NCBI RefSeq assembly: GCF_019059575.1
Contig: NW_024881714.1
Span: 372,001 to 436,000 of the forward strand
Source of the DNA: Amphibalanus amphitrite
Lineage: Eukaryota > Arthropoda > Thecostraca > Balanomorpha > Balanidae
DNA length: 64,000 bases
Reading direction: 5' to 3'
Under the pieces are notes generated by a model. The model ran no database searches. It saw only the letters and a program-made list of their open reading frames with translations, and had not been told where the DNA came from. A program made the position numbers and the translations under genes. Positions 3,001 to 31,400 of this stretch are shown here, piece after piece. Numbering within the stretch: the first letter of the stretch is position 1; each line of letters opens with the position of its first letter.

Positions 3001-3974
3001 GCCAGTGCTGCACGTGGGCCGCGACCCCGGCCATTTCCGTCGGGTAGGTCGTAAGGGTTTGTCAGTGGGAGCCCCAAGGTCACGGGTCGCTCCCTGGTAC
3101 GGGCGCTGCCCGAGGGTGAGAGGCCGTCGTCCAAATATGGCTCTGAGTGGGGGCTGCCGTGTAAGATGTGCGTGACGACGACCCACGCGCGCCGCGGCTG
3201 AATATTGATTTCACTCTGATAACGTTTTACCTTCATTAAAAAACTATGGACATTAGTGAAATAGCTGGGCTTGTTTGAATTCTGATCAGCGCGATAATAA
3301 GGCCATCTTGGCTACCTTAATGGCTACCAAACCTCAGAATATGGTGTTTTAGTGGCGATAATAACAACACAGTCTTACAGCCATTGACCGTGATCCATCA
3401 CATTCACGAACGTATTTAGTGCCTTTCTCAGTATTTCCTCGTCATTTCCCGTCAACAACTACGGAGTCTAGTTTCAACTCACGAAACTACGAAATAATTC
3501 AAAATTCTCCAGCAAGCCATGCAAAAGATTTATAATTAATTTGTTCTTCATCCAAAACCGCCAATCGCATGTTTTGAAGTATTTTTGCCTAATTAGCTCA
3601 GTTATACCGCATTTTCTGTAATTAACTGTGTTTTAGCCAGCTTCAATGCGAGATGCAGATTGATCATAATTGTTTCTCTTTTGGCACCTGTTGCACCGAA
3701 TACCGGGCAATTTCCTCTGAATTAACAAGCCACCTGCTGTGGCCCCAAAACGCCCGTTTGCAACGGGACCAGGGTCAATTTAGGACCAGGTTGGGAACGG
3801 GACCGGGCCGGGCCGGGCCGGGTGCGGTGTGTGACCGCTGACCCGGAACGGCATCTGCACCCGGACCGGACCGGAACGCCGAGAGGAGACGTGGTGGAGA
3901 GGTGAACCTGAGTGACCTCAGAGAGGGCCGCGACGGAGCCGGCTTCCACTTTCAGGTAGACAGTAGGATATTGG
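1..3974. other. No gene supported
   Basis: AT-leaning sequence (1-1300, 3190-3740) flanks a GC-rich block (1400-3190) in which many overlapping frames are open on both strands, as expected by chance. A frame at 380-661 starts with a hydrophobic stretch (GAYAFITAACYVIVGIAI), but it is preceded directly by a stop and has no acceptor that would admit the segment. CCGGG pentamers repeat at about 3801-3822. Confidence 0.6.
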
Positions 3975-4989: not shown

Positions 4990-7900
4990 GTAGATGCTGG
5001 CGATGCTTGTAGCCTAGGTAAAGTGAAGATGAGATATGGTAGTCTGAATTATCGATAACGCCCGCTTCGCAGTTTCATTCCTCCTCAAAAATGCTTATTC
5101 AACCTTTTTTATGGCCAGTCGGTTATGATGACCGATCGCGCTCACCACCTGTCAATCACTGGGTGTCCTTTTCCCTGGTGACGCCCTTCAGGTCCTCCCC
5201 GGAACAGCTGTCTGTCAGTCCATTGCCACCGGATCGCCTGTGTGCCGGCGCCATCAAGCGAGTGTTGACCGTCGACCACGGCTACAGCTGCTGCCGACTC
5301 AAACCGCATCGTTACTCAGACTGACCGCCGACTGCCGCCGCCGGCCGCAGCTCGGGACGTTCTGCGTCGTGTGTCTGTTCGTGGTCGGGCTGCTCCTCTG
5401 TGTTTGTGCCTGGTTTGAGGGTCTGCCGTATGCCGGAGACTGTCCGTGAATATTCCGTCTGTCGAGAAGCTCTCTCACGTCTCCGGCCGGGTGTGAGTGA
5501 GTCGTGCTCACACGCGGTCATCTGCTTCCAGCCGATGAAAAGTGAGCCACGATTGAAAAACAAACTGTAGAAAGCCGCAATCTGTGTGCGCATGTGAACT
5601 AGCCCAGCTGCCAGGGGCTTTGGAACGGAATTGTATGCCAAATCCAAATGATCCAGTGGCTGTCGACCAAAGGCAACTCCACCGCTGTTTTTTGTGCCCC
5701 GCTGAAAAAATGACGCATTGCTCCGGTTTAACTACATTACAAGATACTCGATTCGTTTGCTTAAAAATCCAAAATCGGACTAGCTGTGACCCTTCTCCCG
5801 GGCAGCGGCACGTGGCGCTCGCGATGACCATGGGTTGAGTCTGCCAACCGGACAACAAACAGGTTTCTGGCTGATCCTGTCGACGATGGCAGGGCCGTCG
5901 GCAGCCACGAGACCTCCCCGGGCCCCGACAGCTCGCCAAAGGACGCTGAGCGTGGACTAGGCTGCTGTCGTTATATTGTATTGGCCGTCGTGACAATGTC
6001 ATGACAAATCATAAGACAGATATCCGTCTATGTGTGGCTGGTGAAGGCGCTTAGTCGGTATGACCGATTTAGGCCGTTGTGCGCTGTGAAGACCGTGTTA
6101 CCAGTATGGTCCCATTGACGACCATGGTGAAGCTGACGTGGCAGTGACGACCTCGATGACGAGTGACCCAATCAGCAGCCTCGGTCAGTCCGAGGGGCCT
6201 GCCGAGGGCGTCGGCGGCAGGGGCGGCGGGGGCGTCAGCTTTCCCCGCGGAGGTGTGTATGTGACCCGTGCCGGCCCTCTGCGATCAGCCCTTTGTCGGC
6301 CGGTGATAAGAAGCCCCGGCGGCGGCAGGGCGGGCGGGGCTCTACCAGCGGCCACCGAGGCGTGCCACTGGCTGGACCGTATTGGTCTGTGCATGTGCCC
6401 CGGCTTACCCACACCTTCTGGGACTACCAGTGGTCGACCACGACCCGCGGCACGACCTCGAACACTGCCGGTGAACGGTGCCGACACCGGCGCGTGATTT
6501 CATTCGGGGAAAATGTTGGGAGCACCATATTTGTTGGCGGTGCGGCTGTCGCGTGACGGGGCCGCATGCCGGCGCTGCCTTCCAGCCGGAATGCTACCCT
6601 CAACTCGGGCTCACACTGGCGCTTATCGGGGGACGGTTGAGTCGATTGGCGATTGGCGTCAATGTCCACGACAGGAGAAAGCTTGAATCAATAATACAAT
6701 CGATAGTTGGCACGAAATCCGGCATGGATCAGCGATGAAGCGAATGTTCTCATGGTGTTAGAAATCTGCCCATATTATCATGCTTGCACAGGATCGATAT
6801 TTATACTCGTGGCGGCTTTAAATCGGATGTAATTCATGTCTATGGTATATGCCCATCTGTTATTTTTTAGATTGCTTGCTTAACTTCTCTGTTAAGCTGT
6901 CGTGTTGATAGAGTTAATATGAATCGTTTGGCATTTTCTCAAAGACAGCCATGTCAAGCGATCGAATAGGGCCGCGAGAATCCATTGAGGAAGGAAAGCC
7001 TTACCTATTGAGTTTCAGTGAAACACGAACATATGGATGCCTACACGGTATTTCGTCCTGCCTTCCTGACCCGGTGTATCCTGAAGAAAAATGACGCAGT
7101 GACGACTTTCTTCCGATCGGTGCCGCCGTTTTCCTCTCCCGCAGTTCACTCGCCATCTGTTCCGATATTGTGGCCCCAACTTTCGCTGTATTTTCGCGAC
7201 TTACATCACATTCACGCGTGTGGCCGTAAGAGCGGACCGTTACCAATGGCTGTTACAGAAGTATCATAGATGGGGCCGGTAGACGTTCTGTGATGTGAGT
7301 TACATCACTAGGTAAGCACTTCTGGAGGAGACGAACGTTGTGGTATACGGCAGTGGACCGCCCTGTCAAGGATTCCACCTCTGACAATACCGGCGGCCTG
7401 CCAACCCGTGTCGGTGGGTAGCCACGCGCCGCGCAAAAAGGCCGCACAGGAAAACACGGCGCGGGGCTCTGCTCGAGTCTGCAGTTCACCGACCGGCGGC
7501 GGCGGCGGCGGCGACTACACAGGCGCAGTCGGCGTGTCGGCACGACTGGACCCTCCCCCCTCCCCCCCCACGACGGTCCCTCCCCTCCCCTGCAGTTCCG
7601 GTCGGCTTTGACGGGGGCCGCAGCTCCACTGAACCGGCGTGGTGTGTAGAAGGGTGCAGTGAGGAAGTAGGAGTATTAGGTAACCAGTGGGTGAACACTG
7701 AACAGTGTGATAATCGATGACGAACTTTGGTGTGCCTACGTTATAGCGTTAGCTACGTAACAAAAGAACCAAGCTCCTTTATCCTCACTGTGGCTGTGGC
7801 CGTCATTATGTATGAATCGGCTGTAACTGAAGGATTTGGCACCACCTGTTGTGGTGTAAGACGACAGTGATCCGGCACAATTTAAAACCCGGTCACTGAT

Positions 7901-17400: not shown

Positions 17401-18736
17401 GCCATGGTTTCCGACCAACCTCTACGAGGCAGAACAGCTCGTTTACGGCCTATTACGAGCCCGGGCTGAGTTCACGGCTCCACCGCTGCCCGCTTTCAGC
17501 CGTCGCCGGCGGCGGATAACTTCCGTCCCGCTCGGGTCGTCATCCTCCGTCATTCGCTCGTCATTGGACTCGGTGGCGGCGCCATCAGTCCTCAATGACG
17601 CTCTGCGCGGAGGAACGGGCCTCCTCCACCGCCGCACACTGGTCGGAAACGCCCTCACGAGAGGCCACGGGCGATTCCGGAGTTTCGGATTATTTTTTAT
17701 ATAGATCGATTTGAAATTGATCAAATTATTATACTTAGGCCAAAAAAACTAATCCGGGTGACCAAAAATAGCTGTAATCAGCCCCCGAAGATGGGGTATC
17801 CCAGAACTCGGAAACTGACGCGGAGCAAGAGGTTTCTTGAGCCGGATATTCAGAGTCTTATTGCTGATAGACACCAAATTGAAACCCCACATATTATGCA
17901 TCAAAATGTTCGTTATGAAGTTGCCGACTGGTCAGTGCAAAATTTTTGGTATACTTTTTCCCTAACTAAGATGTACTAGGTATAGCTTTTTTATGAAGGC
18001 TCTCCTACAGTGATTCTGGAATATAACTGCAAAGTTTAGGTAAGGAAACAACAGGTAGTCCCATCTAGTTCCACTCTGATTTTTTGTGAGATGAAGTAGG
18101 ATTTAAATTTACACCAGGGCAACATAAAAGCTAACTGCGCATATTTGCGCAAAATTTGCAGGAGCCGTTCTTCCTACCCAACTACCGCCCGCCCCGCCCC
18201 AGTTTCGGCTCGGCCGCCGCGCCCGGCTTACGCTGACCTGTGTGGCCTGCACGCATCCATGCGTAGTTGACTGGTCATTAAAAACAGATGCGCTTGAGTT
18301 TATGAATTTTGTGAAAAGCGCGTTTTATGTATGCATTTATGTATGTATTGACATCAAAAGCCTTCCTCATATTGCGTGGCGATTACGGCTTGCATTTAGA
18401 GCCTTGCTATTGACAACCATCACTCGGCTGGAGAAAGTGGAAATTGAAACCTTCGTGAATATAAGACGCTGCAAATATAGGACACCTGTCACTGACGTCG
18501 GGTTACCTTGCGCCGTCTTTTTACATTAGATCACAATTCCGGTATTTAACCCTGGCCGGACCGATTGGTTTTCTACATTGACCGGGGAGGGTTGGTACAA
18601 CTCCCTCACCGTTTCGCCTCTTTGAGTTGGTACGACCCCCCTCGCGTTTGGCCCCTGATCGAGCTAGAGCCTCGTGGAAAAAACGACGTGTTGACCGTCA
18701 CGAGAGGCAGCCGATGATACCCAATTTTAAGGTCCT

Positions 18737-18774
18737 AGGTCATCGGGTGACCTTCCAGGTCAGGTCAATGACCC
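18737..18774. promoter_or_regulatory. AGGTCA half-site group with near-perfect IR1
   Basis: Exact hexamers at 18737 (+), 18748 (-), 18757 (+) and 18762 (+). The last, with ATGACCC, makes AGGTCAATGACCC (18762-18774), an inverted repeat with 1-base spacer and one mismatch. The corresponding site in copy 2 has decayed. Confidence 0.5.
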
Positions 18775-18905
18775 GAAAACCGGGAAAATCGGGACCTGTT
18801 AGAAAGTCGTAAATTGTGGCTGCTGTGTGGTTTTCCGGGGTGCTGATCACGAATATCGTATTAGTTTTGATCAGAGATGATGTCTTTAAGCATTTAGACC
18901 AGGTC

Positions 18906-18926
18906 GGGTCAGGTCAGGTCAGGTCA
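18906..18926. promoter_or_regulatory. Overlapping AGGTCA tandem
   Basis: GGGTCA followed by three AGGTCA in 5-base steps (18911, 18916, 18921). The 5-base period means adjacent sites overlap and could not all be filled at once. It is conserved in copy 2 at 27186-27196 with fewer intact units. Confidence 0.5.
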
Positions 18927-19097
18927 ACCGGTAGGGGCTGTGACGGGTATTCGTAATACATGTCAACCGCCTCTGACAGCTTCGTAACATGTTACGAAGG
19001 CGCCAAAACTACTTCGTTTATGTTCAAATGGTTGCTAAATTAGAATTCAGCTCCAAAAACTAGCCTAGAAACATGTAAAACTCGAAAAAGTGAACCG

Positions 19098-19154
19098 AGG
19101 TCACCCGAGGTCACCAAAGGTCAATGACCTGACCTGACCTTCAGGTGACCTTGA
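19098..19154. promoter_or_regulatory. Nuclear-receptor site array with perfect IR1 (ecdysone-receptor consensus)
   Basis: AGGTCA at 19098, 19108 and 19118 (direct repeats with 4-base spacing). The last joins TGACCT at 19125 to form AGGTCAATGACCT (19118-19130), the palindromic 1-base-spaced element recognised by EcR/USP (EcR/RXR) in arthropods. TGACCT follows at 19130, 19135 and 19146. The last reads TGACCTTGA, the reverse of TCAAGGTCA, the extended half-site of FTZ-F1/ERR-type receptors. Binding is an inference; the motifs are directly visible. Confidence 0.6.
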
Positions 19155-19291
19155 CACCCATCCTAATGTATGGGAGCAACATCAAATCACATGTTTGAAC
19201 GTTTGAAACCACGAAAAGCTTGCAAACGCGCGGCTAATGCGAGCCGACATACGCCGAATCGCGATTTCGGCCAAACATGGTCACGGAAAAG

Positions 19292-19326
19292 AGGTCACAG
19301 GTCAAAGGTCATTTGGGTCAGGGTCA
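19292..19326. promoter_or_regulatory. DR1 nuclear-receptor array
   Basis: AGGTCA at 19292, 19299 and 19306 are exact direct repeats with 1-base spacing, the arrangement used by RXR/USP, HNF4 and COUP-TF receptors. GGGTCA follows at 19315 and 19321. AGGTCAAAGGTCA (19299-19311) is preserved letter for letter in copy 2 at 27569-27581. Confidence 0.55.
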
Positions 19327-19648
19327 TGAAATTTTCAGGGTAGGTGTAAAATTGATCAATGCGAGGGTACTGAAAGTTTCATCGCGATCGGCCGCTTTTT
19401 ACGCGAGTTATTCGCGAAAAACCTTAGGGGGGGGGGGTTGCATCAACTCCCCCATGGGCCGGCGAGGGTTAAGGTGTTAACTTTGGGTCAAGGTCAGGTC
19501 GGAGCCCCTCAGGTCACGAAAATGGTTGAAGGAGGTCATATCGCATATCATTCGATTCGGCAGGTCTTCCTGAGTCCAATGGTGGCTTTCCCGACTCTCT
19601 AGCTCCATCTGATCAGGAGTTATTGACGAAAAACTTACATGGCCTTAG

Positions 19649-19812
19649 TGACGTCATAAATGACGTCACGCAAAGTCAACAATGCTAAAGTCAAGCACTG
19701 GACCTTGCAAGGAGTGCATGAAACCATTCCCGGTGCCCGAATAGCAGCTTCCAATTTCCCTTGTTGACTTAAAGTGGTGCTAGATCCTGTATTATACTCA
19801 ATTATGACGTCA
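19649..19812. promoter_or_regulatory. Three CRE palindromes
   Basis: TGACGTCA at 19649-19656, 19661-19668 and 19805-19812, the consensus for CREB/ATF bZIP factors. The first two are 12 bases apart. They lie to the right of the TTAA element, inside the inverted-repeat-bounded interval. Confidence 0.45.
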
Positions 19813-19990
19813 TAACTTAACAGATTCACGTCATATATTTAGTGCTGGACATCCAAATGATAGCTTACATATGACAGAGAAGGTATGCAAAGTTTTATGA
19901 AGTTTGCTTCACTAGTTGTGGAATAACAAGCAAAAAACTTTTGCGGAAAGGCCGCTGGCCTCTCGCTGGAGCGTTTCCGACCAGTGTGCG

Positions 19991-21714
19991 CCGGCGCCGT
20001 CTCGCCGCGCTGTATAACGGAGATTGGTCACGCACAGTGGTTGCGACCGGGCGATGATTCTCCGTCTTTGGCAGTGGCGCCGCCGGGGTCACGGCTCGAT
20101 AAACCAGTCATCAGCGGGACTCGCACCGGCTGCCGGGTCTGAGAGCGCGCCGCCAGCTCCAGCAGACCGAGGTCAGGGTGTAGTTAGGGTCCTCTCAGCA
20201 GGACGCTGCAGGAGAACGCTGACGCTGCGCTGCAGTCTGGAGAGTCCCTCATCGCGTGGCTCCGGGCCGGAGCGAGCTCCGCCGCGGCGCGCTGGCCTGT
20301 GATCAGCTCACGCCGTAACCGGCCGCGCTGACCTCCGCGACCCGAGCCGGACGCGGCACGACTCGACACCCGGTTTTTGCCCGCTCTAACGTGCCTGTGA
20401 TGACCGGCAATGGGCGAACAACGGAGACATGGCCGCTGCCTGCGGCGGTGCGCCGCCGAACACCGCGGTGGTTCGACCAACGGACCCTCCGAGCCAGTTC
20501 GCGGGCTGTTTTCCCCATGCTGTGCGCGTTCTCCGGCAGCCTCAGCCCAGCCTTTCCGATATGGTGCGCCGGGAGATTTCTCCTCATCTCGGCGCGGCCA
20601 TCCGTCTGAGGAAGGGGCGGGACGTGTCTCGCGGCCGGCGGTCGCGCCGACACCATCTGTTTCCCGGTAAATGAAAGGCGTCTCCGGCAGCGCGGCGCCG
20701 TACTGTTATGACACAGGCAGCTCGTGGGACCGCCATGGTGCTGGCCGGAACCCTGCAGATGGTGGGAGAAGTATGAGCTGCCTTTCACGTCTCCCCACGC
20801 ACGGCCAGAGATGTGGTATCACTACGACCAGTTTACGTTCTTCTTGCAGATCTGCGCTAGACATGATGTGACGGGCCAAACTGGACAGACGAGATGGACA
20901 GGTGTGGGAAGTACAGATACGTTTCTAGATTAGAAATACTAGAGCCATGGGAGGGAGATACTCTCGTACACAGAAATGTACGATGAGAGATAAATGTCTC
21001 GCGGTGCTAAACACGACAAGTTGTGTGAGCCGTTTGCCGTAACTTCACATTGCAGGGCGATTACGACATGCTGGCCTTCGTCTGGGGATCGAGCCTGCAG
21101 CAACGACTAAAACACCGTGAGAGGCTCTGGGGATGTCATTTCTGAGTTTGCTCGTGTGAATCGACACGAGGACGTAGTGACCTGGGTATTGCGGTCACGT
21201 ACGAGTACATCGCCCGGAGCTAATTGCGCCCCGGTCGCTGGAGGAGAGTTTATTTTTTTTGTTGGGTTAGGCCCTTTCGGTCCAATGGGACCATTTCAGA
21301 GCCGGGAGGATGATAGGATATAGGGGGAGACATTGGTCTGGGTAGGCACCATAGTGAGTCACCGGGGCTGAGCCCGTCCAGAGTGAGAGGTCAGGCCACC
21401 CAGCCCCAAGGTACTCACTGCACCCGGCTACGGGGTGCGCTCCCTCGGGAGCAGCGGTGCCGCTCCAAGGGAGCAGCCCGCATGAGATAAAGTTGCCTGT
21501 CCAGCCCGGAAGGGGGTTGCGGCGTGGAGGAGAAGGATTTCAGTATCCTGAGGATAGAAGCACGGAACGGTGTGCTGGAGGAGAGCTCGGTCCGTGCCTT
21601 ATGTAGAGGCGAACTCGGGTATCAGTTCCCTTCCGACTCTCAGCTAGTTTCCTCTTCTTCCTCGGTCGCTCATCAGCTCCCTCCCGCTCTCGCTTCTCTC
21701 TCTGTCCCCCCTCT
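19991..21714. other. No gene confirmed; GC-rich block with one candidate first exon
   Basis: A CpG-dense block (20.0-20.7 kb) holds overlapping open frames. One, at 20429-20666, begins at ATG in good context (gagacATGG), encodes MAAACGGAPPNTAVVRPTDP and onward, and reaches a possible donor CCCG/gtaaat. I found no matching second exon. The rest shows nothing. Confidence 0.45.
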
Positions 21715-21716
21715 CT

Positions 21717-21760
21717 CTCTCTCTCCCTCCCTCCCTCCCTCCCTCCCTCCCTCCCTCCCT

Positions 21761-21823
<63 letters not shown>
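21717..21823. repeat. (CCCT)n/(CT)n array
   Basis: CCCT tetramers to about 21768 pass into pure CT to about 21823, followed at once by cctcag/TCTGG, which looks like a splice acceptor with an extreme polypyrimidine tract. No downstream exon could be confirmed. Confidence 0.95.
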
Positions 21824-21826
<3 letters not shown>

Positions 21827-22052
21827 AGTCTGGCTGACAGCTGCCGTGACCGTGTCCACTTAGACAGTAGCCGTGAGTCGTGACACAGCGCCGTCCAGTG
21901 ACCAGTCTCCTGCACTGCGCCGCTGCTCACCGAGAGTGGCGCTTTGTGCGCAGGAAATGGATCTGCCAGCACCACGAGCCCAGTTGTGTGACGGGCACCA
22001 CCGCAGTCCTTGGCATGACGGAGACCCCTGCGGCTGAGCCATGGCTCTGGTG

Positions 22053-22054
<2 letters not shown>

Positions 22055-22134
<80 letters not shown>

Positions 22135-22203
22135 AAGAGAAGAGAAGAGAAGAGAAGAGAAGAGAAGAGAAGAGAAGAGAAGAGAGGGGAGAGAGAGAGA
22201 GAT
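22055..22203. repeat. (GA)n/(AGAGA)n array
   Basis: GA dinucleotides from 22055 to about 22130, then AGAGA pentamers to about 22185, then GA again. On the + strand it is purine-rich, complementary in sense to the pyrimidine array 230 bp upstream. Confidence 0.95.
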
Positions 22204-25200
22204 ATAGCCGCTACCCGCTGCAGAAGATGGACGCGTCGCCCCGTATAGACCATAAGCGAAAGTGACGCTATGCTGCGGCGATCGCGGGGATCTGCGGCAT
22301 TAATGACGCACAGCCGAATAGGCGGCTACCGATTACATCTTCAGATCAGTGGAGAGTAGTTAACGCGCCGCAGTGGCCCGATGCCCGGAGCCGACGCACG
22401 CAGAGGAAAGCCACTGCTGATCAGAGATTAATCATCGCCGGTATGGTAAGAGTTGGACGTTAGAAATCTCCGATCGCACGGCGGAGATGGGCGATGAGTT
22501 ATGGTGGGTTGTTTGAATGTTTCCAGTCTGATTGAACTGGCATCCATGAAGAGGCGGTAGAGGCATTGAGCTTTCTCGCGCCGTTCATTTTAAAATACGT
22601 CGCTAAATAGCACGTGATGATCCCCATTAACATGACTTTGTTCCCACTACCTATATTTGTTTGTCATGAAATGGACGATCAGAGTAGCTGATTGATTCCG
22701 CGGCTGTTTTCGCTGTCATTTTTAGTTTATAACTTCAGATCTCACCGTCGGCTTTTTCATATAGATCACCTGCTTCACACGGTTCGACAAAACGCGATGA
22801 CTGAGACAGCCCAACAATTGAAGTCTCGTCTTCGCCGAAGAGCCCGCGTGCCGCACTTTCTGTCTCGAGTGCTGTCAGTCTGTCCGTCTCTGCCGATACC
22901 CGTGCTCTGATTCGAGACAATCCCATATTATCTGGACAGCGTTTTCCTCGCCGAAATCGTCACGACATGAAATTTTGCGCCGTTCTATTGTTCTTCTCCA
23001 TTTCGTTTCGAGTGAGCGGCGCAGGTAGCTATCTTTGCGTCGATCAGCAGGGTGCCTATGGTTTCTCCATCACCCGGTCTTGTCTGCGTCCGCATTGTAA
23101 AAGGCGCCAATTGCTCTGTCGGGAAAGTCTTCCGCTTTATTCTGGTCTACCGTCAAACAACGCTTTGCGTCAAGTTTAAGGTTGGCTGCGACGTGCTATG
23201 TTCCACTGACGCAACCGATCACGATGGAACCTTTATATTCCATTTCCTCATTATTTGCTAGAGCTAGGTATGTGCGTAAACATCAGGGCGGAATGACCGC
23301 TCAGTGCGACAATTCAATCGGTTGTGTGACCACAACAGGCTGACTGAAATTATGCACAATCACTGGGTGGGCGCTGCAAATGCGATGCGACTGTGGTAAT
23401 TTAGAGGCCCAGTGTCACAATTATGGCGTTTACCCTGTCAGCGCTTGACCCCGGCATACAATGCGTGACACGACGTCATTGTTCGTGTATCGGTCGATTG
23501 GTGTGGCGGGGTGCTACTGCGGAGCACAAACGACTGATGTTTGCATCACAACAATGGGAATGCGCCCACAGTTCACATGTGTGCACTACAGCTTCCATAC
23601 AACGTAATACCGCTGGTCGCCTTACGACGTAATGTGGGACATAATTCGCGACACCAACACCATTGAAAGCGTGACAAAGCACCTGTATGACGACTATGCA
23701 TTGTAATGCCATGCTTTGCATCGTTGCGATTTGTGGCCGTGGACTGAGGTCACGTGCGGCGTTTGGTCCACCAACCTGAGGAGCGTGAGCAGACGGGTGG
23801 CAGGCGGCAGCGCCTCCTTTCAGGCACGATCCACATATTGGCTTCAGCTCAGAGCGTGTCGAAGCACCAAGCACCTGCCGTCGTTTTCAATGTTATGACC
23901 TTGCGAACGTTGTGGCCGTGTGCCCGCGTGCCTGCTGAGTGAAGCCATATCTGGTTTCTGACCCCGTTGCCATCATCGGCGTGACTGCAGGCAGTATTCA
24001 TATTGTATAACTCTGCACGGTGCTAGTGCAGAGTGCACGAGGTTCGAGTGCATGGCTCCTTTACTGCAAACCTCATCTTTGGCCGTCGGTTTCTGACTGA
24101 GTCCTGAGCCTCTTCCTCGCGGCAGCCTGCTGTAACTATCTGCACGACCTAACGAATAACCACCCTATCAGCAGCTGCAGCTGATACCTCCACCAATACT
24201 CCTGCGTGTCAGAACTCGGTAGTCTGTACCATTGGCAGAGCCCGTCGACGCGTTACCGTGAACGAGCCTCGGGCCTCGAGGTAAATCCGAGCTGAGTCTC
24301 GCAACGCCTCGTGTCAAAGCCTCGCACTGCTTTAAGCCTTGAGGCGAATGCGAGTGCTAGCTCATGGACCGAACGCGAGCCCCGAGCGCCAGTCCATGAG
24401 CCCATACAAGCTCGAGCTCGGCCGCGGAGGAGCCGCCGGGCAGGTACCGTTGCATTGCAGCGCGATGCGTGCGGCACGTCTGCCCGTCTGCGCTGCCATA
24501 GCGCCCCGTTAATCTGACTCGGTGTGAACTTGGGCACCGCTTAGAATCGCATCAGCCAGGAGTCTGTACAGTGTACAGGGTGCTATAAATGCTGTAATAG
24601 AGGACATCAGAGCGGTCTTGCCAAGAAGCCTGACATGACCGTATGAACACAGCACACCTCCACAGTCTTCCAGCCAATCATGAAGAGCTTGATTGGCGTT
24701 ACACACTCGCCTGAAGTCTCGAAGGCTATGGCTAGTGGCTTGTCGCTCTGCCTTCTGCATCTGACAGGTTAAACGGCAATCACGGTGGTCGCGGGCTGTG
24801 CTTCCGTCACGCTGTCCGTCCCGTGACGCAGTACCGTGACGTGACGCGCTGTACCAACGCTGTTACACGCTGCCGTGACGCTCCGGTGACGAGCGTGGGC
24901 AGCGGACGACTGCGGTCAGTCCGCCTTCGTATACGTCGGGGAAGGCAAATTAAAAATATACCTACCGCGGAGGGAAGGCGATGGGTGTTTGTGTTTAACC
25001 ATTTATTTTGTTTCTTGGCGTTGGAGTCAAATGGTTTTACTTTTTATGCATATAATTGATCTGAAACTAATTAATGAATGCCCAAGATTTTATAACTAAG
25101 ATTTTACAGAGGAAACGCTCGCTATTTTTATATAATAAACACAAGGACATATACAAAATCGATTGAAATTAGAGACATTTTGTACCGTTAACATTACAAG

Positions 25201-26381
25201 TATTCAAAGTAGACGGTTTGACACTTGTCAGTAAGCTAATTGTGGTTTCACACAACTAATTAAGCTACATCTCTCTTGCTCACTTTCACTGAAGCCGGTC
25301 TCCCTGATCCGCCTCGTTCCGGTGACTTGTACATCATTTAAGCCTGATCGGAGACGGGTCAGTAAAACTAGCCGTGTCATGAATATGCCAGATACTGCGG
25401 TCATATACGGCTTACGGTCATATACGGCTCGTCTCCGGTATGTGCCGGGCCTCTCTCGACACGGTACATATGCTCACTTTCCCCTTCCGTGGTCGAGGTT
25501 TCATCTCTGGACGTCCGCTCTTGCGTAGTGTGAGTGACGTATGTAGCTTGTCCCGGTTCGGTGCACTCGACACTACATGTGTGGCAGATGAGGCCAGGGT
25601 GGAGAACACGCTCCTAAGATGAGGGAGGACGGGCCCTCAGCCGCTCTCAGTCGGTTTAAAGTTGAGCCCAGCTCGGTCAGCAATATATGGAAATCACATA
25701 CAGCTATGGCGTAGCGGCCGCCCGGTCGTCTGTCTGGCCTTGGTGGCGTATCACAGTCACATGCAAGTCTTGTTTGTATTGAGCATCCCACGTCACCGGG
25801 CACATTTGCTACTGCGGTCGGTCGAGATGTTGATACCCCATGTAGACAGATATTTAGAGGCCGCAGGGGATTACCGTCACTCATTCATTGTGGGGCCGAT
25901 AAGCCAGGGCAGCTCGTGCAAAGTGCTGATGCACGGGCACAAGCGCCGAATGTTTACTGCGTCGCTTTTGTAGGAGCGCAAACATACCGAAAACTGCCTG
26001 GAATGTGGGCGGTTTTGGATCCAGCACTGGAATCTAGAAAACATAATTGACTAAAGGTTCTGTACACAACTCTTCCTGTCTTTTTGTGGCATGGTATTCC
26101 AGGCAACACTAGTTCATTAAAACGAGCTAGGTCTGGACAGGACTAGTTAAGCATTTAAGTCATTGAAGTTAATTTGCTGTTGTCGGCACGACATGCCGAA
26201 TTAGGCGTTTTATAAAAGATCATCATGCCGGTTTAGTCACCGAGGAAAGTTAGTAGGTACAGAATGAAATTTTCCTCCAATTGAAGATCACGGTATGTAA
26301 ACGATAACATCCGTGTTATAATCAACAGGACGGAAAAGGGTGGTCCGACGACCGGGAGGCTCCCCGAACTGTTCCTTTGGG
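22204..26381. other. No gene confirmed
   Basis: Mixed sequence. It contains a candidate signal-peptide exon (22967-23026), a GTGACG-rich degenerate patch at about 24805-24890 and an AT-rich stretch 24940-25280. Other frames up to 132 codons show no features. Confidence 0.55.
22967..23026 (+). CDS. Candidate signal-peptide-coding first exon
   Basis: ATG at 22967 opens MKFCAVLLFFSISFRVSGAG, a typical secretory signal (hydrophobic core, small residues at the likely cut after SGA). The frame continues to 23179 with several cysteines, or an exon could end at GCGCAG/gtagct around 23025. No partner exon was found, so the product is unknown and the frame may be accidental. Confidence 0.25.
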
Positions 26382-26499
26382 GAACTGTTCTGTAAAAGGT
26401 CGAAAAGTTTGGGAAAACCGTTCCTCAGAACTGATCCTCTGAGGAGAGGAACGGTTCTGTGAAAGCTCGAAAAGTGGTAAAATCGTTCCTCAAACTGTT
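26382..26499. repeat. Two-copy tandem repeat, 67-bp period
   Basis: GAACTGTTCTGTAAAAGGTC at 26382 recurs as GAACGGTTCTGTGAAAGCTC at 26449. The match extends about 50 bases. Extra GTTCCTC/GAGGAAC inversions lie between the copies (26419-26455). Confidence 0.8.
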
Positions 26500-27376
26500 C
26501 CACATCTGGTATCTCATTTTGTACATTGCAGTTTTACATCAGGAATGTAATTATTGTTACAGTCCAGGTAATTATCTTGCATTTGTAGGCTGTGTCATTA
26601 TGATGACGCTCAATCAACCATTCCCTTATTACTTTTTTATCGTTATTCCTTATGAGTAATCCAAACTTATTGAAGCAATGTTGTAAGCCATACGACTATG
26701 AGATACTAAACTGTTTCTTAGTTCCCTTGAGAGAAAATCGCCACAATGCACAGTGGGGATTTTTCCGATCTAGCACGTATTTATTCGTAGAGGGCAAACC
26801 ATAGGTAGAATTGTAGCCAGATTGTGCACAGATGTTGACTGGTGTGTCCTGGTGAGAATTTTACCTGTAAATGTGCATAATCAACATAGTATAGGGGGTT
26901 CAATTGGACCCCCCGCTCAGCCGTTTGGCCCCTGATCAAGCTAGAGCTTCGCGTAAAAGTCAAGCGTGCTGCCTATGACGAAATTAGGCCGAATATATCC
27001 AATTTCAAAGTCCAAGGTCATAAGCTGACTTTCCAAGTCAGTTTAATGACCCAACTAAAGTTGGGAAATCGAGACCTCTTGAAACTTCGCAAAGTTAGGG
27101 TGTTACGGGGTATTTTGGGGTGCTGATCACGAATTTCATGTTAGTTTTGATCACAGACGATGTCTTTATGCATTTAGGCCAGGTCGGGTCAGGTCAGGTT
27201 AGATCAACTAGTAGGCGTCCTGCCGGCCATCCATAGAAGTGTCACCTACTACTGATAGCTTCGTAACATGGAACGAAGGCACTAGAACTACTTCGTAAAT
27301 ATTCAAATGGCTGCTAAAATCGAAATCAGCACCAAAAACTACCCTAGAAACAAGTAAAACTCGAAAAAGTGAACCA

Positions 27377-27425
27377 AGGTCATCAAAAGGTCAATGACCT
27401 TGACTTGACCTTCACGTGACCTTGA
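27377..27425. promoter_or_regulatory. Nuclear-receptor array with perfect IR1, copy 2
   Basis: AGGTCA at 27377 and 27388, with the latter forming AGGTCAATGACCT (27388-27400). TGACCTTGA, the reversed FTZ-F1/ERR extended half-site, is at 27395 and 27417, and another TGACCT is at 27406. The IR1 is identical to copy 1 although surrounding bases have diverged. Confidence 0.55.
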
Positions 27426-27568
27426 CACCCACCATTATGCATGGCACCAACATCATTTCACATATTTGAACGTTTAAAACCACAAAAAGACTGGAAACCG
27501 CGGATAATGTGAGCTGGCATACGCCGAATCGCGATTCCGGCCAAACATGGTCTCGAGAAATATGCCAC

Positions 27569-27581
27569 AGGTCAAAGGTCA
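27569..27581. promoter_or_regulatory. Perfect DR1, copy 2
   Basis: AGGTCAAAGGTCA, two hexamers with a 1-base spacer, identical to 19299-19311. Confidence 0.55.
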
Positions 27582-28459
27582 GTTGGGTCAGAGTCATGAA
27601 ATTTTTTGGTTAGATGTAAAATTGATGATCTCGAGGGTACCGAAAGTTTCGGCGCGATCAGCCGCTTTTTGCGCGAGTAATTTGCGGAAAACCATGGGGT
27701 TTTATCCGACCCCTTCCCCCTCCCCCTCCCCACAAGTGCGATGGTTAATAAGGTTACGGTATGTATAATTTACGCTTGTCATCCTATTCCTAATGAATGT
27801 GTCTCAGAAAATATGCATCATATAAATCACGAAGTAAAATTATTCGCCTATGTCCGGAACATACCTATATCATGCTGTTTGCCCTAGCGCTCCTCGAGTG
27901 GGGTGTTAAGATACTCTAATGTGAATATTCCGTGTTCAGGCAAGTTTCGGCAGCCAAACTAGGCGTTGTCTTGTGCAGAAGAAAGTGGCGAATTCGATAG
28001 GATATATTTCGGAGTGGAAAAGTGTGGAGAACATTGTTGATTTCCTACATTTATTTAGAATACCATTCCTTCAATATGGTGTCTGTAAGGTTTTTTTGTA
28101 AAGGGCATTTTTGTGACGTTAGTAAGGTTGTGGCATACTTTCTGTTTGCCATTCCATTCCTAATAAAGGTGCCTTTCAGACGATATGCAACTTTAAGACC
28201 TCGCAAGATTAAAACCAACAGGACAGGACAATGAAATTGAGCTATACTTTCGGGCCTTGCTGAGCCCATTGAGTAATCACGCATGAGTGTGAACTTTGGG
28301 CGCATTTTTCCTAGTTTTGCTGTGGACATACAGATAAAACAATGCCATATATGAAAAATTCAGACATTTCTTAGCCCTACTGACACAAAAAATAAACCAA
28401 AATCCAAAAAATATTTTTTGAATTAATAGGCGCTAGATCGGAAAAATCCCCACTGTGCA

Positions 28460-31400
28460 ATGCCGCGGCTCACTGAAGTTGCGTTGGCTGGCTGTTGCGT
28501 TGCGTTGATCAGCAGCTGACTGCGGTGCACTGCTCACTCTGAGAGCTGTAAAACTGATAACCGACAGGCCACTCTCACTGCAGTCTCGGTGGCCGAATGA
28601 TTGGGTTCGGGACACTCGCAGGCCGCCGGGCTCACTGCGCGGAGAAAGTGGTCAGTTGGTACGAGCGCGTGCAGTGATTACAGGAGCGGACGTGGCTCCA
28701 TTCGCATGGGCTGATCCAGCTTCGAAGCCGCATTCCGCTGTGGTTTTGGCACGGACCAGCGTTGAATCCGTTGATCGTAGATGGGTGATCTGGGACCATT
28801 CAGCTTACGCTGTATTGCAGTGGTTCCAGCTTTCCAGGTTTCTTGTGCTTGTTTGAAAAAGCTGCTGTCTCTTAAGGTGAAGATTTAATATACCAATGCA
28901 CATCGTCCGTCGTGATCTGGGTTCGCCTAAGTTTACCTTTACCGTGAAAGTGAACATGGGCTATATATGCGTAGCGTCCAACGACAGACCACGCGCAGAT
29001 GAATGGCTCGGTGGTCGACCTCATTTGGCTAACAATCCCGGAGAACGGTTTCGTCGCAGGTGGAAGGCGAACCGTCCCGGCGCGTCAGTGTCATTAGGAA
29101 TGGTCCGCTCGATCACGGCGCGTCGGTGGCGGAAGCGGCGCGCCGCATACGTCGCACCTGCGCCATTATCGCTGCGGGCGTCAAGTGCTGACTTCCTCCG
29201 TGTAGGTACAGTTACGACATAGGTGTGTTTATACTGTTTATGTAAGCGCCGTCTGCGAATAACTGGCTGGGGCGGCACGAATTGTTACATAGGTATTTAA
29301 ATTCACCTTTTACCATTTACTTTGCGATTTCAATTGATGTCTTTCTTTGCCCATTTCAAGAGCAAAACTCCTTGTAGTTATCACTAAGATCTGGCGCTTT
29401 TTTGTGTCATGGACTCTGGTTCTAGCGACCTTCCAGCTCTATCTGGAGGTTATGTGTCAGATTTGGCGATCGGCGCCATCCATTGTCTCCGGAGCGCCAT
29501 CCGTCGTCTCAGCTGGCTTGCCCCGTCCCCGCCGGGTTTCACGTTAGTGTTTACCAGACGGGCATAATGGCAGCAGCGCTTGACTCTATCTTTGGTTGGT
29601 GGTAAATACAAATGAATAGGTACCCAATCGTGCTTCGCCATACATTCTCTTCTCCCGGTAATTGCATTAGTGCTTAGTTGATAACTTGCGAGCTTTCAAT
29701 TAAGTCGAAAGAGAGAAGCTGTTGTCGGTTACCGACCGAAAGCCTAAATGCCTTACAAATATGTGACGTTTTCGTGAATAACTAGCTAGGTAATTGTGAT
29801 AAAACGGCTTTCATGCATTGTTTCGGTGTCAGTTTGTTATAAGCTCTGATTGGTTTGATAAGCTCATTACATCAGATATGGCTAAGGGCAAGTATTTATA
29901 TTTAGCTCATGGAATTATGTGAGGTGTATGTAAAATAGCCATGGTATTTCATCCCCGTGGACAGCCTTCTTTTCTGTTCTTTCTGGTGAGATCTTAGTTG
30001 GGAATACATGCCATTGTGATGTAATTTAAAATTGATCGCTTATGCATGCGGTCTATAAAATGTGAAAGTGAAAATGATATAAATGCTTGTCCTAATTGGA
30101 TCGAAATTATCTCAAGCTTGTAGCCCAACTTTTTAATGACGCAAATGCGGCTATGTAGTTATTAGGTATGCCAAGCGTACGTTATTCGTCTTTTTTAATG
30201 TTACCCTAAATGAACATTTAGTTTGACTAGATAAACATTTAATTAGGCAAATGATAATTTCATTACCAAAGCTGAACTTACCAAATCCCAGTTGCAGACG
30301 AACCCTATTCAGACGAGACCTCACTCCCCTGCCCTGCTGAGAGCGTCTTTAAATTCAATTAAGATACTGTCACTGAGCCTGTCTCGGCACAGTGGCGCCC
30401 TAAGTGCCGGCTAACCCGACCTGTGATTAGTGATCACTCCAATGGAAGGACGGCGTGACTCCATCGAAACCAAGGACGCAGGTGCGGCTGCCACTCCCTC
30501 TTTGCTGCAGGGGTACTGGGTCCGGTGCCAGGTGTACCCTGGTGTTTCTTAGTAGAGGTGTTAGAAACAAAGCAATGGGCATAGAATAAGACTGGGATAA
30601 TATGAGAGGGAACTTGGTTATGCGGCACCCCAACCGACATGCTGTTTATATGCGCAGTGGCCAGTTCCATTTCGGACCAGTTTCCACTTGGGATACATCA
30701 CAGCCTTTAGGCGGCATCCTATGTAGCTTGCATGCTGCAGCCCTCCTTGTCCCTTGTACGAGCCTGCACAGTGCGCAGCTGCCGTGATGGAGCCTACGAT
30801 GCCGAGTCACGACTCAGACATGGCTACCGCTCAGCGGTGCAATTAGATTGGTGTCAGCCTTTTCAGACGTCAGTTCACTCCTCTTTCGCAGTGATGCACA
30901 CTGTCGGGCTCCCGCTGGGCCGGCGACTTAGCAGCCGCATGTAACCTTGTCTCATTAGACCCTGTGACCTGCATGTCACAGGAAGGTCACATGTCACATG
31001 GCCGTGACGGTCAGTCAGTGTGCCGGGGGCCGTACGCTAAAGTGCTGGAGCGCCGTGACCTCGCGTTCCTCGGGGCGAGGCGTGACGGGCCTGCGGTCGC
31101 GGTGTCGAATGTCGGTGATCGTGCCGTGAAATGTGATCTCCTCAGGGGCTCCGGGACACGTGCGTCGGCAGACCCCGAGGCGATGGCTCGTGACCAGTCA
31201 TGGTGCTCCACTGCAGACCTCCCCTGAGCCGGTGTCGGCTGTCCGGCATGAATGAATACAATATATTGCAGAACTATTGAACGATTTGAACATTCATTGC
31301 ATGCGTCGGCACATAGGCTGTGAATGGAGTAGCATGATGCCGAAGTAGTATGATATTACATGGGACGTGCCATACAAACACAGACATGACACGTAGCCGC

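Follow-up and report, generated by a model that had tools for sequence, protein, structure and literature searches.

The stretch of DNA analysed here (the window) comprises 64,000 nucleotides of Amphibalanus amphitrite (contig NW_024881714.1, positions 372,001 to 436,000) and contains two diverged copies of a mobile element packed with the hexamer AGGTCA. Exact AGGTCA or TGACCT is referred to as a half-site, and pairs of half-sites are named by orientation and spacer, IR1 and DR1 being the inverted and the direct repeat with a one-base spacer. The hexamer excess claimed in the first-pass annotation was confirmed, with 17 half-sites in copy 1 (18546-19472) and nine in copy 2 (26895-27748) against chance expectations of 0.45 and 0.41. 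Dinucleotide shuffles yielded 0.3 half-sites for the 98%-identical relative L002, 0.4 for window positions 26877-27748, and 0.3-0.5 for each of seven ~1-kb elements. The features of the two copies are as follows.

18546..19472, forward strand: copy 1, a TTAA-bounded AGGTCA element, chimaeric, with the junction near 18626
18737..18767, no strand assigned: half-site cluster A of copy 1, 4 sites
18911..18926, forward strand: half-site cluster B of copy 1, 3 overlapping sites
19098..19151, no strand assigned: half-site cluster C of copy 1, 7 sites
19118..19130, forward strand: perfect IR1 AGGTCAATGACCT of copy 1, exact word
19292..19311, forward strand: half-site cluster D of copy 1, containing the DR1 AGGTCAAAGGTCA at 19299
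26895..27748, forward strand: copy 2, a diverged AGGTCA element, with the 3' TTAA kept and the 5' end decayed
27377..27425, no strand assigned: half-site cluster C of copy 2, with TGACCTTGA at 27395 and 27417
27388..27400, forward strand: perfect IR1 AGGTCAATGACCT of copy 2, exact word
27569..27581, forward strand: DR1 AGGTCAAAGGTCA of copy 2, exact word

The three words reported earlier as held in common by both copies were found where they had been placed, namely AGGTCAATGACCT at 19118 and 27388, AGGTCAAAGGTCA at 19299 and 27569, and TGACCTTGA at 19146 and 27417. The occurrence of TGACCTTGA at 27395 had been missed, and the same word lies in reverse orientation at 19488 and 38370, beyond both copies. 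Alignment of the two copies over 789 columns shows 80% identity. Neither of the two intervals is a single clean element: copy 1 consists of the 5' end of one TTAACCC element joined to most of another, with approximately 300 bp missing in comparison with its relatives, and copy 2 lacks the 5' TTAACCC end, with TTAA retained at its 3' end.

Both window copies belong to a piggyBac lineage, which consists of long elements with a transposase open reading frame (ORF) and of gene-less miniature inverted-repeat transposable elements (MITEs) of ~0.9 kb; we hold the anatomy described in this paragraph to be very well established. In relatives of copy 1 the element ends are TTAACCCTCGCCGGCACAGG...CCTGTGCCGGCGAGGGTTAA, inverted, with CCC beside TTAA, and TTAACCCTCGCCGGCACAGG and its inverse lie 887-904 bp apart in six of the seven relative loci, L006 being without an exact 3' end. 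CCC ends are a property of the piggyBac element of Trichoplusia ni. The long element L050, which has nested insertions and an altered last TTAA, contains a 504-aa piggyBac ORF whose product matches the solved piggyBac transposase 6x67 with an E value of 3.8e-73, and its flanks on both sides match the copy-1-type MITE at 91-96%; the segments of the MITE L002 that match it are 1-162, 159-209, 410-508, 493-712 and 708-902. The copy-1-type element is a MITE in that it is 903 bp long and gene-less, has both ends of L050 and occurs in many copies. A DDE_Tnp_1_7 transposase partner with the same ends was identified both for the copy-1 MITE (L050) and for a sister, MITE e (L054); the parent type of MITE e is another long element, represented by L053 and L054, with end pieces 81-88% identical. 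In L005, MITE e, the TTAACCCTCGCC element, fills a TTAA that is single in six of eight related loci, window included. This TTAA-filling pertains to the sister element in L005 and not directly to the copy-1 and copy-2 elements, and L002 was not found by exact word. The single TTAA in the window is:

19817..19820, no strand assigned: single TTAA, empty in the window and at the same place of five related loci, filled by the TTAACCCTCGCC element in L005

Whole-genome counts were made in the window's own assembly (807,550,619 bases, or 807.6 Mb, in 2,644 contigs). Exact AGGTCAATGACCT occurs 10,275 times, compared with six occurrences of the word read backwards and ~24 expected from length alone, and ACAGGTCAAAGGTCA, which is the DR1 plus two more bases, occurs 8,604 times against two for its control. 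Inverted pairs of the form AGGTCA-N0-12-TGACCT numbered 150,702, against 866 for the reversed control, and direct pairs of the form AGGTCA-N0-12-AGGTCA numbered 533,592, against 4,529, both strands counted; because pairs overlap within an array, the figures refer to pairs and not to arrays. A genome-wide count allowing one mismatch gave 55,343 versus 449, which is no gauge of decay because the word counted is nearly self-complementary and exact matches come first. Searches of the assembly with copy 1 and copy 2 gave 4,353 and 8,339 first-look candidates; the main matches were 96-100% identical to copy 1 in the best 40 of the 4,353 and 99-100% identical to copy 2 in the best 40 of the 8,339, the copies themselves included. 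The proposal that a numerous mobile family scatters perfect IR1 and DR1 words was thus borne out by the genome-wide counts and the candidate copies, and the thousands of candidate matches together with the exact AGGTCAATGACCT words ruled out that only two copies exist. Exons for receptor DNA-binding domains (DBDs) were found as many equal-scoring pairs on different contigs (for example C493/C582 and C495/C620), which suggests that haplotypes are unmerged and that the genome-wide counts are possibly up to twofold high.

In a non-random 221-kb sample, composed of the window and 20 piggyBac loci, AGGTCA/TGACCT was the second hexamer by z-score, with 425 occurrences against 136.8 expected from trinucleotides, behind CCCCCC, the top hexamer at 4.5-fold. 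Just inside both ends of L050 (970-1000 and 7454-7482) a G-run opposes a C-run, as was also seen in other elements, and a hairpin or G-quadruplex at the element ends is possible.

The arrangement of half-sites was analysed in a non-redundant set of 42 of the 83 clusters. Inverted pairs in this set have spacers of 1, 5/6, 11/12, 16, 21/22, 26 and 31/32, corresponding to a period of ~5.1 bp (29 pairs; R 0.88 versus 0.53 for the 99th percentile of the null). Direct pairs displayed the same period more weakly (R 0.37 versus 0.28), with a one-base overlap as the most frequent class and DR1 as a minor spacing (5/133), and the 20 everted pairs displayed no periodicity above the null. A hand count of the first 100 inverted matches listed, on contig C1, was consistent with a ~5-bp lattice: spacers 0 to 6 occurred 6, 22, 2, 0, 0, 15 and 18 times, and spacers 7 to 12 occurred 4, 0, 1, 3, 26 and 3 times. 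The IR1 geometry is not favoured among these matches (IR1 22, IR5 15, IR6 18 and IR11 26).

A second regularity concerns the distance between clusters, which consist of mostly exact RGGTCA half-sites and lie ~160-190 bp apart in the non-coding ends of the elements. Distances between half-sites in the 221-kb sample peak near 180, 370 and 550 bp, and AGGTCA ranks second of 659 hexamers for pairs at 150-210 versus 60-120 bp (461 to 56). In the first ~257 kb of C1, with at least 75 clusters among the matches listed, 23 cluster distances fell at 140-219 bp, none at 60-139 and none at 220-299, clusters closer than 60 bp having been merged and direct pairs taken from the forward strand only.

Evidence for constraint on the half-sites was obtained from comparisons between families. 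MITEs of ~1 kb carry 6 to 21 exact half-sites each. Families c1, d and g contain 17, 13 and 16, and their excess over shuffles for exact versus one-mismatch sites is 16.7/1.2, 12.5/0.7 and 15.6/0.5; by BLAST, these three otherwise have in common just end pieces and short stretches. Identity outside the sites between d, e and c1/c2 is 44-51%, at which, by calculation, free decay from a common ancestor would yield more one-mismatch than exact sites. The variants of the half-site are mainly ACGTCA (24) and GGGTCA (20), and ACGTCA, by our own reading, derives from TGACGTCA, the palindrome of a cAMP-response element (CRE). A higher column identity of half-sites between families was rejected as proof of constraint, because conditioning on one exact row biases that comparison, and the argument for constraint therefore rests on the counts of exact and one-mismatch sites and on the columns common to both window copies.

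In those common columns, with matches at L009-L024 dropped as duplicates and the window's two copies masked, older copies matched at 267/276 half-site columns and 2941/3135 of the rest (p = 0.047). Retention of whole words in copies was scored on contig C1 and on C2 up to 2.09 Mb, in 161 groups, as presence of a word given at least two of three others. IR1 was retained in 49/72, DR1 in 54/77, the control CTCGAAAAAGTGA in 50/77 and the CpG-rich control CATACGCCGAATC in 38/80, so that IR1 and DR1 resemble the former control and lie above the latter. The comparison of decay rates that the first-pass annotation had set out thus came close to equal decay, and there is little sign of extra conservation of half-sites inside copies. 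The claim that IR1 and DR1 are the preserved units was not supported, in that other inverted spacers are as frequent, DR1 is minor and retention is about that of one control word; it is the hexamer and its lattice that stay exact across families.

The 20 piggyBac-gene loci were examined for arrays within the gene-bearing element itself. Clusters in the ends of that element were found in L050, L053 and L054, which form one clade supported at 100/100. L050 and L054 also have, between cysteine pairs one and two of the C-terminal cysteine-rich domain, a basic loop of 23 residues, and this loop is seven residues long in all 10 of the other loci matching the cysteine pattern. Eight loci gave no match to the pattern (L040, L044, L047, L049, L051, L052, L053 and L055), and their loops were judged by eye: L047, L051, L052 and L055 have a loop of seven, L044 has a short ORF without the cysteine-rich domain, and the ORF of L053 crosses that region in another frame. 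In ten piggyBac loci with CCCATTA ends just 0 to 4 half-sites lie inside each. In L038 (2636-5635) a piggyBac of this type appears to have integrated into an AGGTCA element at a TTAA, with pieces of the AGGTCA element on both sides, and in L049 four half-sites occur in the piggyBac ORF on the reverse strand at 3059, 3445, 3833 and 4219, 386/388/386 bp apart, which may be coincidence.

These results suggest that the arrays are cis-elements under selection in the transposon, with multiplied transposase binding sites as the likeliest function, a reading that we adopt tentatively and rate close to an even call. Selection on the arrays is probable; that the lineage's own transposase is their reader is a possibility that we place somewhat short of even. 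The C-terminal cysteine-rich domain of the transposase would bind the multiplied AGGTCA sites, the half-turn (~5-bp) phasing would allow cooperative binding, and a cluster spacing of ~180 bp would let every cluster fall into the linker DNA that separates two nucleosomes. MITEs would keep their arrays because they still depend on the enzyme. Inverted or direct pairs of perfect RGGTCA are textbook nuclear-receptor sites, and the perfect pairs in these arrays would double as candidate receptor sites, thousands of them genome-wide, as a by-product.

Several observations weigh against this assignment to the transposase. The link to the clade is weak, since two changes on the tree are required once L045 counts as a bearer of clusters; L045 was rejected as an independent array-bearing long element because its upstream clusters sit in a MITE nested at 1670-2599, and it also has 13 downstream half-sites (5463-6140) that were attributed to no element. 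For L040, L044, L048 and L055 of the 20 loci, no element ends could be located. Just two independent long elements with arrays remain, so that shared descent could explain the link to one clade, and loops of 12 (L040) and 14 residues (L049) were seen by eye. Positions 210-409 of the MITE, where cluster B lies, are without a counterpart in L050. The ratio of one-mismatch to exact sites rises to 0.30 to 1.54 in families i, h, c2 and e and in L054, and the column test lost strength, at 213/222 versus 2400/2591 (p = 0.075), when the main match at L029, a near-copy of copy 2 that had been in the first test, was left out. A tandem 187-bp duplication accounts for the cluster spacing in L054, and families c1, d and e have a common layout by descent. 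With A or G in its first position, the hexamer RGGTCA coincides exactly with the nuclear-receptor half-site, the two sites of the T. ni element are spaced like IR3, a spacing with no instance among the first 100 matches listed, and the L053/L054 element carries CRE palindromes and a heat-shock-element-like array, which point to host transcription factors. Because of the L045 half-sites and the weakened column test, our confidence in selection and in a transposase reader was slightly lowered.

The strongest competitor, which we consider rather unlikely, is that the arrays are host nuclear-receptor enhancers, at which EcR-RXR and the like would switch on the transposase or make chromatin accessible at hormone peaks, with MITEs inheriting the sites and nearby genes possibly responding. 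GGGTCA is the top half-site variant apart from the CRE-derived ACGTCA, perfect IR1 words are abundant in the assembly, and one lies at L054 2647, 508 bp before the ATG, near the heat-shock-like array at 2798-2837 and the CRE palindromes. Absence of a receptor from this organism was ruled out, since the genome contains EcR-like DBD exons, 93-96% and 77-78% identical to a Drosophila query, together with an RXR-like DBD exon recognised by eye. The spacing, however, follows a 5-bp lattice and not dimer rules, with IR6 and IR11 about as frequent as IR1 and DR1 rare; IR1 is not clearly better preserved in copies, and arrays of gene-bearing elements were assigned to one transposase clade among the loci examined, L045 aside. 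We lean to the transposase because the array geometry is unlike that of receptor dimers, with modest confidence, and the transposase and receptor readings are not exclusive. A combination of the two, in which the cysteine-rich domain of this lineage reads the nuclear-receptor half-site and transposase and ecdysteroid receptors share and compete for 10^4-10^5 arrays at nucleosome spacing, so that the moulting hormone would govern transposition as well as gene regulation, is improbable.

A cluster spacing of about one nucleosome repeat in several families, together with the ~5-bp phasing, would also fit another host DNA-binding or chromatin protein that reads the arrays in nucleosome phasing, silencing or nuclear organisation and that the transposon exploits or is marked by; with tandem duplication explaining one case (L054), we regard this as unlikely. 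Least probable is neutral growth, in which an ancestral (GGTCA)n simple repeat expanded by slippage and was then inherited. The 5-bp period, the predominance of one-base-overlapping direct pairs and the background-like decay of the copies are what it would give, but slippage does not give rise to inverted pairs separated by unrelated spacers of 5 or 11 bp, and the excess of exact over one-mismatch sites in c1, d and g, families with little else in common, and the few half-sites in the CCCATTA-type loci argue against it.

Candidate sites of other host factors were observed in the same elements. Alternating TTCnnGAA arrays resembling heat-shock elements precede the piggyBac ORF in L054 (2798-2837, 8 units, and 2916-2938, 5 units) and in L053 (5719 and 5616). 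The CRE palindrome TGACGTCA is 9.8-fold over expectation in the 221-kb sample and sits in the 187-bp tandem units of L054 (about 1850-2510), beside the AGGTCA array.

Both window copies lie within larger host repeats:

17635..19988, forward strand: outer host repeat of copy 1 (2.35 kb), inverted ends CACACTGGTCGGAAACGC, with the 5-bp duplication CGCCG at 17630-17634 and 19989-19993
26749..28457, forward strand: outer host repeat of copy 2 (1.71 kb), inverted ends CACAGTGGGGATTTTTCC, with the 5-bp duplication CAATG at 26744-26748 and 28458-28462

The inverted ends of these repeats, CACAGTGGGG (26749-28457) and CACACTGG (17635-19988), start with CAC. With the window included, matching 5-bp duplications were found in 6/8 loci related to the copy-1 host repeat and in 10/12 related to the copy-2 host repeat, the remaining two in each case being without one recognisable end; the 16/20 loci with matches are thus every locus at which both ends were found. 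The duplications differ between loci (for example CAATG, CACTG and CGCCG). We take the repeats to be Transib-like, and the start of CACAGTGGGG presumably resembles the heptamer of the recombination signal sequence. The CAC ends and the locus-varying duplications indicate that the window copies lately moved as passengers of such elements, and copies 1 and 2 have spread further as piggyBac MITEs inside Transib/RAG-like MITEs. PMC9435367 describes 5-bp target duplications in RAG-like elements related to Transib; these duplications and CAC-starting ends are what the outer repeats have in common with them, and the likeness was drawn from these ends and duplications.

That transposons multiply nuclear-receptor or heat-shock sites is already known, as PMC1785376 and PMC6927752 report. 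The human genome contains 108,582 DR2, 90% of them in Alu, and the Alu DR2s arose largely from CpG deamination (PMC1785376). As here, a numerous mobile element, with DR2/DR4 retinoic-acid-type elements, multiplies consensus receptor sites; unlike Alu, the element described in this study is a DNA transposon with many exact sites per copy in regular arrays. Alu itself is a retroelement. In the Caenorhabditis Helitrons with heat-shock elements, a DNA transposon likewise spreads host transcription-factor sites, but HSF-1 occupancy and gene induction were shown there (PMC6927752), whereas our evidence is from sequence and concerns another motif and element class. In T. ni piggyBac, PMC7351741 states that TGACG-containing sites lie in an internal repeat bound by the cysteine-rich domain, that one added TGACG-type site about doubled integration and that a 5-bp insertion about halved transposition. 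The TTAA target, a related transposase and TGACG-containing internal sites, transposase-bound in T. ni, are held in common; the T. ni loop has 11 residues (own numbering of the alignment) versus 23 here, and T. ni differs from a lineage with so many exact half-sites per MITE in clusters at nearly regular distances. No report of an AGGTCA-array piggyBac lineage or of such arrays was found in the open-licence literature searched, and the receptor terms searched for in PMC8896005 are not present there.

In conclusion, receptor binding at even a small part of these sites would mean that a single transposon lineage has given an animal genome thousands of candidate hormone switches, or else a large receptor sink; if instead the transposase reads the arrays, a mobile element would have converged strikingly on a host regulatory code. 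The ~5-bp lattice and the nucleosome-length cluster spacing provide a concrete biochemical hypothesis. Either way, the thousands of copies constitute a natural replicated test of how transposon-borne receptor sites turn into gene enhancers.

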